Of a stretch of DNA of 64,000 bases, positions 7,371 to 64,000 are shown piece after piece; the first letter of the stretch is position 1; each line of letters starts with the position of its first letter. This DNA comes from Rickettsiales bacterium. Its GTDB lineage: Bacteria; Pseudomonadota; Alphaproteobacteria; Rs-D84. Where the stretch lies: contig JAITCH010000011.1 of the NCBI GenBank assembly GCA_031283185.1, positions 1 to 64,000 on the forward strand. Reading direction: 5' to 3'. A program made the translations under genes and the position numbers. The notes beneath the pieces were generated by a model. It had not been told where the DNA came from and did no database searches. It was given only the letters and a program-made list of their open reading frames with translations.

Positions 7371-7548
7371 GCAATCCCGACCAAAAAATATTAGTCATTG
7401 CCCGGCTTGACCGGGCAATCCCGGCCGATTATTCTGCTTATTTTGCCGAGATCCCCCGGTCTCCCGTTCCCACTGGCTACGCTTCGCTCGCCTGGTGGGA
7501 CCCAACGGGTCGCCGGGGGATGACTTTATTATTTTAAGTCGACGAAAA

Positions 7549-9657
7549 CTACATCCCTCTTCCCACACTTACTTGGTCGCCAAAGCCTGCAATCGGCATA
7601 CCGGCGACTTTGCATTGCACAGATTCAAAGCCTTTGTCCACTTGCTTGGCCTTAACAAAATGATTGGTTAAAAAGCCACCAAGCGCGCCAACTACGACCA
7701 TCGCTCCGCCGTCATATAAAAGTCGTTTGGTGTTGACCGATCCATCAGTCTTTTTCAACCACGATGCCTTGTCCAGTTGAAAAGCCGACAAGTCGGCCAG
7801 TTTGCTGTCGGTCGTTTCGGACTCTTCACTCTCTCCAATTAAAGGCACTCCTACTTGGCAGAACCCCCAAAGTTTTTGTTTTGACCAATCATCTGGGTCA
7901 AAATACAAAGCATTACTATTTGTTGAACTAATCCGATAGCCCTGTTCAAGCAACCTTTCACAATCATTGACATTTCTACATATATTATGCATAGCTTCCC
8001 TACATGCCGGATCCTTGCAAGAATCATTAACTTTCAAATCTTTAAAAATATCTAAATAATTCTTCACAATTTTTTTTCTAGCATTATCTTTTGTCGTACT
8101 TATATCATAATTAAACGCTAACTTTAGTTTGTTTGATATTAAGGTCAGCTTTTCAAAACATTCATTTTCAGTATCTTGCTTGCAAGTTTTGTTTATGTAG
8201 TCAGAGATTTCTTCTTTTGTATTTTTATTAGATCTAGTGATTTCTTCTAAAGATTTCAAAACTCCTGATTTATTGCAACAAGCCTGCGCCTCTTCATTAT
8301 TTTCATCAAATAACTCCACTATCGATGAGGCGCAATTGTCTTTATTAATCCTAACTTCTTTTTCCCTTTCTTCTTTTTTTATTATTTCTAATTCTTTATT
8401 AACAAGTGCTACAACTTTATCATTATTACCTCTTGCTTTGTCTAAATCTTTTATAAAAGAGTCTTTCGCACACATAACTGCTATTTGAGCTTTATTAATT
8501 CTGACTTCGTTTTCAAATGCTTTATTAAGATCTGCGTTGCATTTTTCACCCGCATCGATTGCTTTTTTACAACCTGCTACTAACGGGATTTCTTTTTCTC
8601 TGTTGATTATTTTTTTTGCTGCCGTGCAATTATCATTTGAAATATCATAAAAATTACCAGCAGCGTCCTTAAACATACGGGTTCCGACTGGGACAAAATA
8701 TTTATCGTTCGAAATGGACTGGTAAAAATTGTCGTCCTCGTTGTCTTTTTTATAGCAATAAGCATTTTTGGTTGCCAGTGATATGCTAGATTTTATATCT
8801 CTACTATTCATAAATTTATCACATTCAATTGGCTCTACCCCATATTCTGCCTCACAGACCGATTTTTTTTCAATAGCAACACACTTCTTCTCTGTCACGG
8901 GACATTTTATAACTTTCCTATCTGTTGATATAAGTGATGCGTCAATAGCAGAATTTAAATATTTTTTAGCAAAAACACAATCATCTTTGCTCTCCCAATC
9001 CAAGGGGATAAGATATTTGACGCCCGTGCTATCATTATAAGGAGTCGCTATAATTTTCATTGATTCGATTTTTGTGGTAGGACTATTTTCATAGCAAAAA
9101 GTGTCCGTTCCTGTTATTTCTATTGCTTTTGCTTTAATGGTTTTGCAGTCCGATACGCTAATACATTTAGTGCCATCATCAAAAACATCTGTTTCGCCTA
9201 ACCCACATTTTGCATTGCAGGCCTTTGCCTGAATTCCTTTATTTGATTTTACTTTTTCAAACTCTTCGCAAAAACCTTTTTTAGCAGAGTTGCCATCATT
9301 ACTAATAAATTCCGTTTTGAGTTTTTTTACCTTAGAATAGGTAAAAGTATAAATTTTTTCGTCTATTTCTAAAAAATATCCCTCCCTATTAACGATAGGC
9401 CTGTCTTTATCATCACAAAAATTACCCGACTTTATAGAATTAATGAACTCATCAAAGCAGTTTCCCTCGTTATTGCCCCCCCCCGAACTTATCTTTGCCG
9501 TCGAGTTGTCTAGATTTTGGGCAGGCGGGAGCACCAGTAGTGCTGAATGTGGGGCTTGATTCCCATCCGCCCTCGTCAAGGCAATTATAATAATTTGTGC
9601 TACCAGCAGGTATCGGCTGGCATTGATTCCCTGGCTGTCCTCTTTTATCTTTGGCAT
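7549..9657 (-). CDS. Cys-rich body plus conserved C-terminal domain of surface/secreted paralog family (copy 1); apparently frame-disrupted at a G9 tract, so residues N-terminal to the tract in this frame are probably spurious
   Basis: Many Cys; C-terminus LADLSAFQLDKASWLKKTDGSVNTKRLLYDGGAMVVVGALGGFLTNHFVKAKQVDKGFESVQCKVAG...GDQVSVG shared with ORFs at 36488 and 63257. Confidence 0.75.
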   Translation of the reverse strand: MPKIKEDSQGINASRYLLVAQIIIIALTRADGNQAPHSALLVLPPAQNLDNSTAKISSGGGNNEGNCFDEFINSIKSGNFCDDKDRPIVNREGYFLEIDEKIYTFTYSKVKKLKTEFISNDGNSAKKGFCEEFEKVKSNKGIQAKACNAKCGLGETDVFDDGTKCISVSDCKTIKAKAIEITGTDTFCYENSPTTKIESMKIIATPYNDSTGVKYLIPLDWESKDDCVFAKKYLNSAIDASLISTDRKVIKCPVTEKKCVAIEKKSVCEAEYGVEPIECDKFMNSRDIKSSISLATKNAYCYKKDNEDDNFYQSISNDKYFVPVGTRMFKDAAGNFYDISNDNCTAAKKIINREKEIPLVAGCKKAIDAGEKCNADLNKAFENEVRINKAQIAVMCAKDSFIKDLDKARGNNDKVVALVNKELEIIKKEEREKEVRINKDNCASSIVELFDENNEEAQACCNKSGVLKSLEEITRSNKNTKEEISDYINKTCKQDTENECFEKLTLISNKLKLAFNYDISTTKDNARKKIVKNYLDIFKDLKVNDSCKDPACREAMHNICRNVNDCERLLEQGYRISSTNSNALYFDPDDWSKQKLWGFCQVGVPLIGESEESETTDSKLADLSAFQLDKASWLKKTDGSVNTKRLLYDGGAMVVVGALGGFLTNHFVKAKQVDKGFESVQCKVAGMPIAGFGDQVSVGRGM

Positions 9658-9973
9658 TCGTAGAAAAACTTAAATTTCTGTTTTGTTGATCTAAACCGCT
9701 TTTTGTCTCCCCTATTGATTTGAGGCTATCATTCAATTGGTCTTGCGTTATACAACAGCGATATTTATCCTTATCAAAGATACATTTTTTCTTAAAATCA
9801 TCGTCATCTTTGAAAAGCTCGGATCTGAGTTTTTTGGCTTGGTCTGAATTGTTTGCTGTGGCAGCAAACCCATCAAAAATCGGGGTGGAAAAGGCAATCG
9901 CCGCAAGAAAAATCGTCCAATAAATCTTATTGGCGCGCGTATGATTGCGTATAGTTTTCTGCGGGTTTCCCAT
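9470..9973 (-). CDS. Signal-peptide-bearing N-terminal part of copy 1; terminates just after the G9 tract
   Basis: IYWTIFLAAIAFSTPIFDGFAATA signal peptide; ends ...GKDKFGGGQ*; loss of one G would fuse it to the 7549 frame (808 codons including stop). Confidence 0.75.
   Translation of the reverse strand: MGNPQKTIRNHTRANKIYWTIFLAAIAFSTPIFDGFAATANNSDQAKKLRSELFKDDDDFKKKCIFDKDKYRCCITQDQLNDSLKSIGETKSGLDQQNRNLSFSTNAKDKRGQPGNQCQPIPAGSTNYYNCLDEGGWESSPTFSTTGAPACPKSRQLDGKDKFGGGQ
9476..9484 (-). repeat. Homopolymer G9 (C9 on + strand), candidate phase-variation tract
   Basis: ttattgCCCCCCCCCgaactt read directly. Confidence 0.85.
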
Positions 9974-10105
9974 ACCTTAATTATATCAGATTTTCCACCC
10001 CTTTGCAAAATGTAAAATTGGTGGTGTGTGCGGGGATTTGCCCCCTGGCCTTTTGATTCGCCGGGACAAATCCCAAATCTTCTTCCAAAAATGGAACTTT
10101 TGGTC

Positions 10106-36487: not shown

Positions 36488-38473
36488 TTACTTCTTGCTC
36501 CCAACACTTACCTGATCGCCCCAACCTGCTACCGCGCTACCCGCAACCTTACACTGCACAGACTCAAAGCCCTTGTCTACCTGATGCGCTTTCACAAAGT
36601 GATTCGTTATGAACCCGCCAAGCGCGCCGACCGCTACCGCCGCACTAGCATCAAACGCAAGCCGTTTTACATTGGTCGTTCCGTCAGTCTTTTTCAACCA
36701 ACTCGCGGAATCCAGTTGAAACGCCGACAAATCCGCAAGGGTTTCAACTGGCGCAGGCTTTTCTTCTTTACACGCATCTGCCAATTTATTGCCCTTTTCA
36801 AGGGATTTGTTGAATGTTCCAGCATTATTATCACATTGCACACATATCTGTGTAATATCATTTTTTGATAATTCGTTGTAATCTTGGTGCCGTGTTATAA
36901 TCTCGAAAAATGCCAGTTCGCATTTGGTCGGAACATCAATGACCGGTTCTGGGGTGCAAAATTCTAGCAGATTTTTATCGTTTATTTGTTCTGGATATTT
37001 ATCTATAAATTCCTTAAATTTATCTTTTCCGCAAGTCGCGCATACTTCATCCCATTTTTCTTTGTTTATATTCGGATAATCTTCCACCTTTTTACCATCC
37101 GGCAAACAAGACGGCGGATCACGATAGTCCTTGCAAAATTTTATCGTTGCTGTAACACCCATATCATAAAATGATTTTTCTTGTTTTTTATAGTCTTCCA
37201 TAAAAGCGGCGAATTTTGTTGCGTTGCAACTTTCGCAAATGTTATCCCAAATTTTCTTATCATAACTTGAAGAATCGCCCAACAAACTTGCCCGTGTTAC
37301 ACCTTTGGGAAGACAGGATGGCTCCGGGTCGGCCGGTTTTTCACAAGGCGTCCAATACTTCATATCCTTGCCCTTGCCTGTGGGTTTGCAGGAACGCATT
37401 GCGCTACCTTCGCCACAAATTAAATTCTGTCCTTCGTTTTTCTTACTGATATAAGTATGAACTGTAAATGTTTCACCGCCGCTCGTATATTTATATTCCT
37501 GTGGCTTTTTTTTCAAGAGATCAATAATCGTATTTCCATTAACATCCGGTGTTTTAGCATCGCAACAATGAATCTCTTTTTTATACGGAAAGCAATATTC
37601 CTTCATTGTTCCGTCTTCATTAAATAAAAAATCACTAATACGCTTATTGTCTATTACTGCCTTTGTATCGCCGCAATCTGACCATTTATAATCGTCCCTT
37701 GTGTATTCGGAACCACTTTTTTCCGATATGCATATTTTTTCCTGTCCCGGATTACAATTTAATGTAAATGAGCCCCCTGCTCCATAAGGCGTTATCTTGT
37801 CCTTAAATTCTTTTTCTAATTTGTTGTTTATTGGTCCGCAACAATGGCGTTTTCCATCACTGGCCTTTTCACATGTATACTCACTAGTGAACCTATAATC
37901 TTCATAATTCACACATTCCGTCAATATCTTATCTCTGTTCCAATAACCCTCGCAAACTCTTACTTGTCCGCTAGGGCAATCTGCTGTGTCTTTTTCACCT
38001 CTTTCAAGCGCAACGACTTTGCCTTTAAGAAACTCATAAGTCTTGCCCGTTTTACAGCAAACCCAAGAATCGCCTTTTTGTTTGCATTGGCTATTTTGTG
38101 GATCAATTAATTCTTCAAACAATTTGATGTTCTTGTCAGTTGCGGGGGCTGGTGATGCATTATTAATTTTAGGACAGAGTTTATCAAGATATTCTTGGAC
38201 TTTGTCTTTATGTAATTTTTGCTTCTTTTTATACTCTTTCATCTCTTCGCCGTGTGGACCCACAAGACTATTCTCTTTAACAATTTGATCTAAACCTACT
38301 AATTTAAGATACGCATTAATATAATCGCCACGCCCTGTATCAGAACATCCGTTTGGACTCGCGGCAAAACTTGGGGAAAAAATTGTGCTGAAAACAAAGG
38401 CAGCAAAAATTATCCTAATAGTCTTTATAGGTGTGTGTGTGTGTGTGTGTGTAGGTTTCTGCCATTTTTTCAT
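36488..38473 (-). CDS. Cys-rich exported protein, paralog family copy 2, with (AC)11 in N-terminal coding region
   Basis: MKKWQKPTHTHTHTPIKTIRIIFAAFVFSTIFSPSFAAS; repeated CxxC...KF..F modules; conserved C-terminal LADLSAFQLDSASWLKKTDGTTN...GDQVSVG. Confidence 0.85.
   Translation of the reverse strand: MKKWQKPTHTHTHTPIKTIRIIFAAFVFSTIFSPSFAASPNGCSDTGRGDYINAYLKLVGLDQIVKENSLVGPHGEEMKEYKKKQKLHKDKVQEYLDKLCPKINNASPAPATDKNIKLFEELIDPQNSQCKQKGDSWVCCKTGKTYEFLKGKVVALERGEKDTADCPSGQVRVCEGYWNRDKILTECVNYEDYRFTSEYTCEKASDGKRHCCGPINNKLEKEFKDKITPYGAGGSFTLNCNPGQEKICISEKSGSEYTRDDYKWSDCGDTKAVIDNKRISDFLFNEDGTMKEYCFPYKKEIHCCDAKTPDVNGNTIIDLLKKKPQEYKYTSGGETFTVHTYISKKNEGQNLICGEGSAMRSCKPTGKGKDMKYWTPCEKPADPEPSCLPKGVTRASLLGDSSSYDKKIWDNICESCNATKFAAFMEDYKKQEKSFYDMGVTATIKFCKDYRDPPSCLPDGKKVEDYPNINKEKWDEVCATCGKDKFKEFIDKYPEQINDKNLLEFCTPEPVIDVPTKCELAFFEIITRHQDYNELSKNDITQICVQCDNNAGTFNKSLEKGNKLADACKEEKPAPVETLADLSAFQLDSASWLKKTDGTTNVKRLAFDASAAVAVGALGGFITNHFVKAHQVDKGFESVQCKVAGSAVAGWGDQVSVGSKK
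38431..38452 (-). repeat. (AC)11 dinucleotide tract (GT on + strand), candidate phase-variation tract
   Basis: gtgtgtgtgtgtgtgtgtgtgt read directly. Confidence 0.9.
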
Positions 38474-38542
38474 CTTCTCGTCCGCTGTTAATACATAATT
38501 ATTATATCATTTTTTGTGCATTTTTACAAAATATAAAATTCA

Positions 38543-63256: not shown

Positions 63257-64000
63257 CTACCTCTTCCCGACACTTACCTGATCACCAAACCCGGCAACCG
63301 CAAAGCCCGCGACAGAACATTGCACAGCCTCAAAGCCCTTATCCACTTGTTTCGCTTTCACAAGGTGATTGGTGAGGAACCCACCAACCGCGCCGAGTGC
63401 CACCGCCGCGCCAGCATCCCAACCAAGCCGTTTCCAATTTGTCTCACCATCGGTTTTCTTTAACCAACTCGCCTTATCCAGTTGAAACGCCGACAAGTCG
63501 GCAAGTTTATCCGATACTTTGGTTTCTGCCTCTGTGGTCTGTTTATCTTCTGCCTCAACCTCTTTTCCCTTTTCACCATTAACTTCGTCTGCTACTCTTT
63601 CATGCCCCATCTCCCTATCTTTGTCGTTACATGCTTCTCTTATGTCATCCCAGCCAGGGTTTCTTAATCTATTGCTTCTATAAAATTCATAAGAATCATT
63701 AAAGTTTTTCACATTATCCTTTCCGCAGGCTTCACATAGTTGAATTTTGTTGTCGACTCCCAGACGTTCAAATTTCGAATTGATTTCTGCAAGAAGACTA
63801 TTCCCGCATTTATCTTCTAATTTTTTATTTTCTTCGTTTTCTCTTAATGCTTTACATCCTTCACTTGCCTCTTCCGGGGAATTAATGTTGGGATTATATT
63901 GCATTGCTGCTTCAAAAGACTGCTTTGTTTTGCAATGATCGCAAGCCTTTATATAATCCTCAATATTTAAATTTGGATCTAAAAATTTTGTTCGAACGGC
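63257..64000 (-). CDS. Cys-rich paralog family copy 3, open through the window edge (5' end missing)
   Basis: Frame stays open upstream of the listed Met to 64000 (AVRTKFLDPNLNIEDYIKACDHCKTKQSFEAAM...); conserved C-terminal domain LADLSAFQLDKASWLKKTDGETN...GDQVSVG. Confidence 0.8.
   Translation of the reverse strand, partial: AVRTKFLDPNLNIEDYIKACDHCKTKQSFEAAMQYNPNINSPEEASEGCKALRENEENKKLEDKCGNSLLAEINSKFERLGVDNKIQLCEACGKDNVKNFNDSYEFYRSNRLRNPGWDDIREACNDKDREMGHERVADEVNGEKGKEVEAEDKQTTEAETKVSDKLADLSAFQLDKASWLKKTDGETNWKRLGWDAGAAVALGAVGGFLTNHLVKAKQVDKGFEAVQCSVAGFAVAGFGDQVSVGKR

Follow-up and report, generated by a model that had tools for sequence, protein, structure and literature searches.

A cysteine-rich gene split at a G9 tract as a probable phase-variable locus in a small-genome alphaproteobacterium

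The window analysed here is the first 64 kb (64,000 nucleotides) of contig C4 from a Rickettsiales bacterium genome of 930 kb in 15 contigs, and it carries a minus-strand gene that is divided between two reading frames at a run of nine guanines (Table 1). The first frame encodes a signal peptide and closes just past the G9 tract, and the second crosses the same tract and encodes a Cys-rich body. The gene starts with ATGGGAAACCCGCAGAAA and has a 15-mer in common with one of the (AC)n cassettes described below. Both frames had been described in the initial annotation, which further held that a tract of G8 or G11 would fuse them into 808 codons and that this copy looks OFF, and all of these claims are borne out by the present analysis: removal of one G gives a single frame of 808 codons including the stop (807 aa), and because one G fewer yields this single frame, the copy as assembled is called OFF. 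The homopolymer thus lies within the coding region, at the frame junction, and a single-unit change in it toggles the gene between a full-length and a truncated product.

Table 1. Features of the split gene and its paralogs, in window coordinates unless a contig is named
Feature	Position	Strand	Remark
G9 tract, proposed slippage switch	9476-9484	minus (C9 on plus)	frame OFF as assembled
Signal-peptide ORF, 167 aa	9470-9973	minus	ends ...GKDKFGGGQ* just past the tract
Cys-rich body, tract to stop, 644 aa, 29 Cys	7549-9484	minus
Full open frame containing the Cys-rich body, 702 aa	7549-9657	minus
Promoter-like site TTGCAA-17-TATAAT, TG before the -10	9980-10008	minus	adjoins the ATG at 9973; consensus match only
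Gene 5' end ATGGGAAACCCGCAGAAAACTATACGCAATCATA, repeat degraded	9940-9973	minus	GGAAACCCGCAGAAA common with the (AC)n cassette at C4:64618; read from sequence
Conserved 83-aa C-terminal domain common to paralogs	7552-7800	minus
Complete paralog, same C-terminal domain	36488-38493	minus
(AC)11 microsatellite at start of paralog 36488-38493	38431-38452	minus	in frame
Third window paralog	63257-64000	minus	(AC)9 5' end outside the window, C4:64607-64624

The signal-peptide frame and the body frame overlap by 197 nt (9473-9669), with the G9 beginning 185 nt into this overlap, and the chance for any one G/C run of at least 8 in the window to hit the overlap is approximately 0.3%; the bare G8 count in the window is itself ordinary (3 matches versus 2.6 expected). 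Codon usage is coding-like on either side of the tract, where the signal-peptide frame scores best far upstream and the body frame scores best past the tract, and from about -190 to 0 nt before the tract both frames are close. Since codon usage alone does not fix the exact point of the frame switch, its placement also draws on Cys content: across the 58 codons leading up to the tract, the signal-peptide frame has three Cys and the body frame none. The earlier claim that the tract sits at the exact junction is supported by the Cys counts and by the G9 being the only run of at least 6 in the overlap, and it is left ambiguous by codon usage taken by itself. A reading in which the locus encodes two separate proteins, with the body translated from its own ATG at 9657, can draw on the presence of that ATG and on a hydrophobic patch in the stretch; however, this 58-codon stretch has no Cys, no Shine-Dalgarno was seen in the sequence, and complete paralogs join signal peptide and body, which makes this reading extremely improbable.

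Past the tract, the body frame stays open for 641 codons with no further lesion seen. These observations bear on whether the gene carries a fixed frameshift and is decaying to a pseudogene, which would agree with the broken frame and with the availability of paralogs that could cover its function. Decay is decidedly unlikely given this long open frame, the coding-like codon usage on both sides and the position of the only break exactly at the longest run.

The split gene belongs to a paralogous family whose members have their own start-proximal repeats, which the initial annotation missed, together with the poly-G promoter tracts and the dispersed (AC)n cassette of the lineage. The C-terminal domain is found at 8 loci and in 2 contig-end fragments of this genome. 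A search of 101 genomes recovered it in 50, every one of them a member of the same bacterial family. Full-length paralogs run from signal peptide through to C-terminal domain in one protein, and paralogs carry (AC)7-11 near their starts. A long G run is present in only 2 of the 8 family members of this genome, a point against G-tract switching. In a paralog on contig C5, signal peptide and body are split at an A8 tract, with a G10 further on. In a sister species, one member is interrupted by a C8 tract located after its start and ahead of the hydrophobic segment of the signal peptide. Neither the two pieces of the gene, nor two paralogs, nor the C-terminal domain matched a Pfam or NCBIfam model above the curated cut-off. 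When the signal-peptide piece, the alternative frame and the early body were compared by BLAST with paralogs and relatives, nothing useful was recovered, so N-terminal homology among the paralogs rests on short motifs and the common 5' cassette. A structure predicted for the C-terminal domain with 9 sequences as input had poor scores (pLDDT 50, pTM 0.22) and suggests only a hydrophobic helix. Two members, L070 (C14) and L057 (C5), have identical C-terminal domain protein sequences despite differing bodies, which suggests recent gene conversion.

Long G runs are in excess across the genome, where 31 runs of at least 8 and 16 runs of at least 10 were counted, versus 3-14 and 0-3, respectively, in simulations of the same length. 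In the stretches fetched for analysis, which are tract-enriched by design, run counts drop to length 7-9 and climb again at 10. The tract-bearing genes are surface-related and include a GT2 and radical SAM fusion, a GT61, an FkbM methyltransferase and Opa-like barrels. In the fusion, a G11 tract joins the GT2 domain and the radical SAM domain in one frame (L059:3016-5316; C7:17337), and sister genomes likewise have tracts where radical SAM genes begin. Many intergenic places across the genome, for example 7384-7425 of the window, hold a dispersed repeat that is palindrome-like (CATTGCCCGGCTTGACCGGGCAAT).

Homologous tracts in relatives differ in both length and frame, as observed in genes other than the G9 gene that we take to be GT92-like from an IDLDEFLV motif (our own naming, with no Pfam test behind it): one sister genome has a G9 coding tract that leaves the gene in frame, and another has two copies in which the tract is G10 and the gene is split there. 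A scan of genome contigs recovered sister species only, with no other genome of this species among them, and contig-end overlaps checked for mixed tract lengths gave nothing clear, with dispersed repeats interfering.

This genome-wide evidence can be weighed against a consensus error, in which the real tract would be a fixed G8 and the gene intact. Long G runs are difficult to call, and some of those in this assembly lie at contig ends and may be artefacts; against this, 130 intact ORFs of at least 250 aa contain 78 A/T runs of at least 7 and 15 G/C runs of at least 8, which argues against general frame damage at homopolymers in the assembly, and tract splits recur in three genomes from different assemblies. 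An error at this one tract is therefore considered unlikely. The differences between homologs also bear on recoding, where ribosomal or transcriptional slippage at the G9 would let the OFF sequence still yield a share of full-length protein. In its favour, runs prone to slippage can also have effects in RNA, but tract lengths and frames vary between homologs as DNA slippage predicts and the (AC)n repeats of paralogs indicate change at the DNA level, such that recoding as the explanation is very unlikely.

Tracts of the same kind are also found in promoters. When a tract was required to have a TTGAC-like box no more than 20 nt away and TANNNT where the tract ends, 36 of 118 tracts from four genomes lie between -35 and -10 boxes, versus 0.27% at random positions; two of the 36 have spacings (10 and 23 nt) that are unlikely for a promoter. 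Each genome has many promoters, those of Opa-like barrels among them, with the tract directly against the -10 box, and homologous promoters that have a TAGACTGC or TAGCC box in common carry G10, G10, G10, G11, G12 and G14 with spacers of 16-23 nt. In one species, a G9 promoter tract lies just 5' of a cas9-like gene with HNH and RuvC (L125:264; G002:C9), and as the two adjoin, a CRISPR nuclease might be switched by this tract. In genome G001 (loci L084-L112), 39 of 43 G runs of at least 9 are exactly G9, and about 25 have TTGACA on one side and a TAgaaT box on the other, 18 nt apart; these could also represent a fixed promoter class bound by a factor instead of a switch.

A third group of repeats consists of (AC)n runs. 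The element GAAACCT-(AC)n is common to 10 loci in this genome, with n = 7-11; at five of these a long secreted-type ORF has the repeat within its start or immediately ahead of it, and at the other five it lies in a short leader ORF that is followed by a stem-loop and then a gene. More broadly, a cassette GCAGAAA[C/G]CT-(AC)n opens genes that are unrelated to one another throughout the bacterial family, and only part of these genes are in frame. Runs of T(AC)n are present in other genera of the family, and those that were fetched start genes that include an ABC transporter, a GT2, a GT61 and a collagen-like protein. When 15 (AC)n genes were scored for ATG starts within 60 nt, 7 were in frame and 8 out, a count that is approximate because L147, with (AC)9, scored OFF yet has an ATG directly 3' of its repeat and may be expressed regardless. 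At the five leader loci (L144, C3:66625; L145, C3:82013; L150, C5:61992; L151, C5:65022; L153, C14:24864), the leader ORFs begin MAETYTHTH, and stem-loops that differ in sequence stand at similar positions, with a T-rich stretch next and then the gene, a layout that is attenuator-like in its sequence features.

Loss of mismatch repair was considered as a cause and was rejected for this genome, in which MutS and MutL were both found. Their presence would lower slippage at short mononucleotide tracts and so counts against a G9 switch. Neither protein was found in genome G001, which is 86% complete.

Taken with the evidence above, it is likely that the two ORFs are one gene and that slipped-strand mispairing at the G9 switches its protein. 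The proposal of the initial annotation that the gene is phase-variable is well supported, as the best and a probable reading, by genome-wide, family-wide and cross-species evidence; against it, a G9 is among the shorter tracts for which fast switching is known. In the proposed mechanism, the gene would encode a secreted or surface Cys-rich protein with its promoter just 5', and slipped-strand mispairing during replication would gain or lose Gs at the tract. At G8 or G11, signal peptide, body and C-terminal domain would be made as one protein of approximately 807 aa (ON), and at G9 the stop just past the tract would leave a short secreted fragment without the body or C-terminal domain (OFF). 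The gene layout, the frame states, the tract excess, the promoter positions and the differences between homologous tracts are seen in the sequences; from them we infer that such switching takes place in living cells, that the protein has a surface location and that it plays a role in host or phage interaction.

The gene would then be one unit of a lineage contingency system in which poly-G tracts act both within coding regions and as promoter spacers, alongside (AC)n cassettes close to gene starts. Given dozens of slippery repeats in the surface genes and promoters of relatives, the lineage appears to switch its surface randomly. It seems somewhat more probable than the contrary that such switching is lineage-wide in this family of small-genome gut alphaproteobacteria, with the portable cassette spreading among unrelated genes and bringing frame control, and with some copies now serving as leader ORFs with terminator-like hairpins. 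From isolate names, we infer a termite-gut origin for the same-genus MAGs.

Repeat-driven phase variation is known mainly in pathogens, and here it would operate extensively in gut symbionts that are uncultured and have reduced genomes. The prediction of mixed tract lengths at named loci is testable in existing metagenome reads. MAGs with a single consensus would conceal a large part of how the surfaces of these bacteria vary, and ORFs split at such tracts should not be called pseudogenes before reads are checked.

The slippage mechanism is already known. In the literature searched, no report for this lineage was found, and neither the Cys-rich family nor the portable (AC)n cassette appears to have been described. 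Poly-G coding contingency loci, in which the length of a run inside the ORF sets the frame, have been described in Campylobacter (PMC8355987) and in hmbR and hpuA of Neisseria (PMC3786947). The present locus is like these in its in-ORF G run, in the many such genes per genome and in their surface-related targets. It differs in belonging to unrelated small-genome alphaproteobacteria and to a Cys-rich family without a Pfam match, and in that the known loci are defined by population length variation whereas this tract is known from assembled sequence. A dinucleotide example is Helicobacter pylori oipA, where a CT repeat in the signal-peptide region switches the frame (PMC10564699). The (AC)n repeats of the paralogs resemble it as dinucleotide repeats in the signal-peptide coding region; unlike oipA, the AC repeat is part of a common 5' cassette before unrelated genes, and the G9 gene retains a degraded version only. 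For promoter tracts, Neisseria offers two similar cases, porA and opc. In opc, a poly-C tract lies in the promoter (PMC3960869). The promoter tracts of this lineage, which concern the setting and not the G9 itself, are likewise G/C tracts inside promoters, such that their length would change transcription, and they differ from opc in that many promoters of each genome have the tract directly beside the -10 box and, in one species, such a tract stands at a cas9-like gene.
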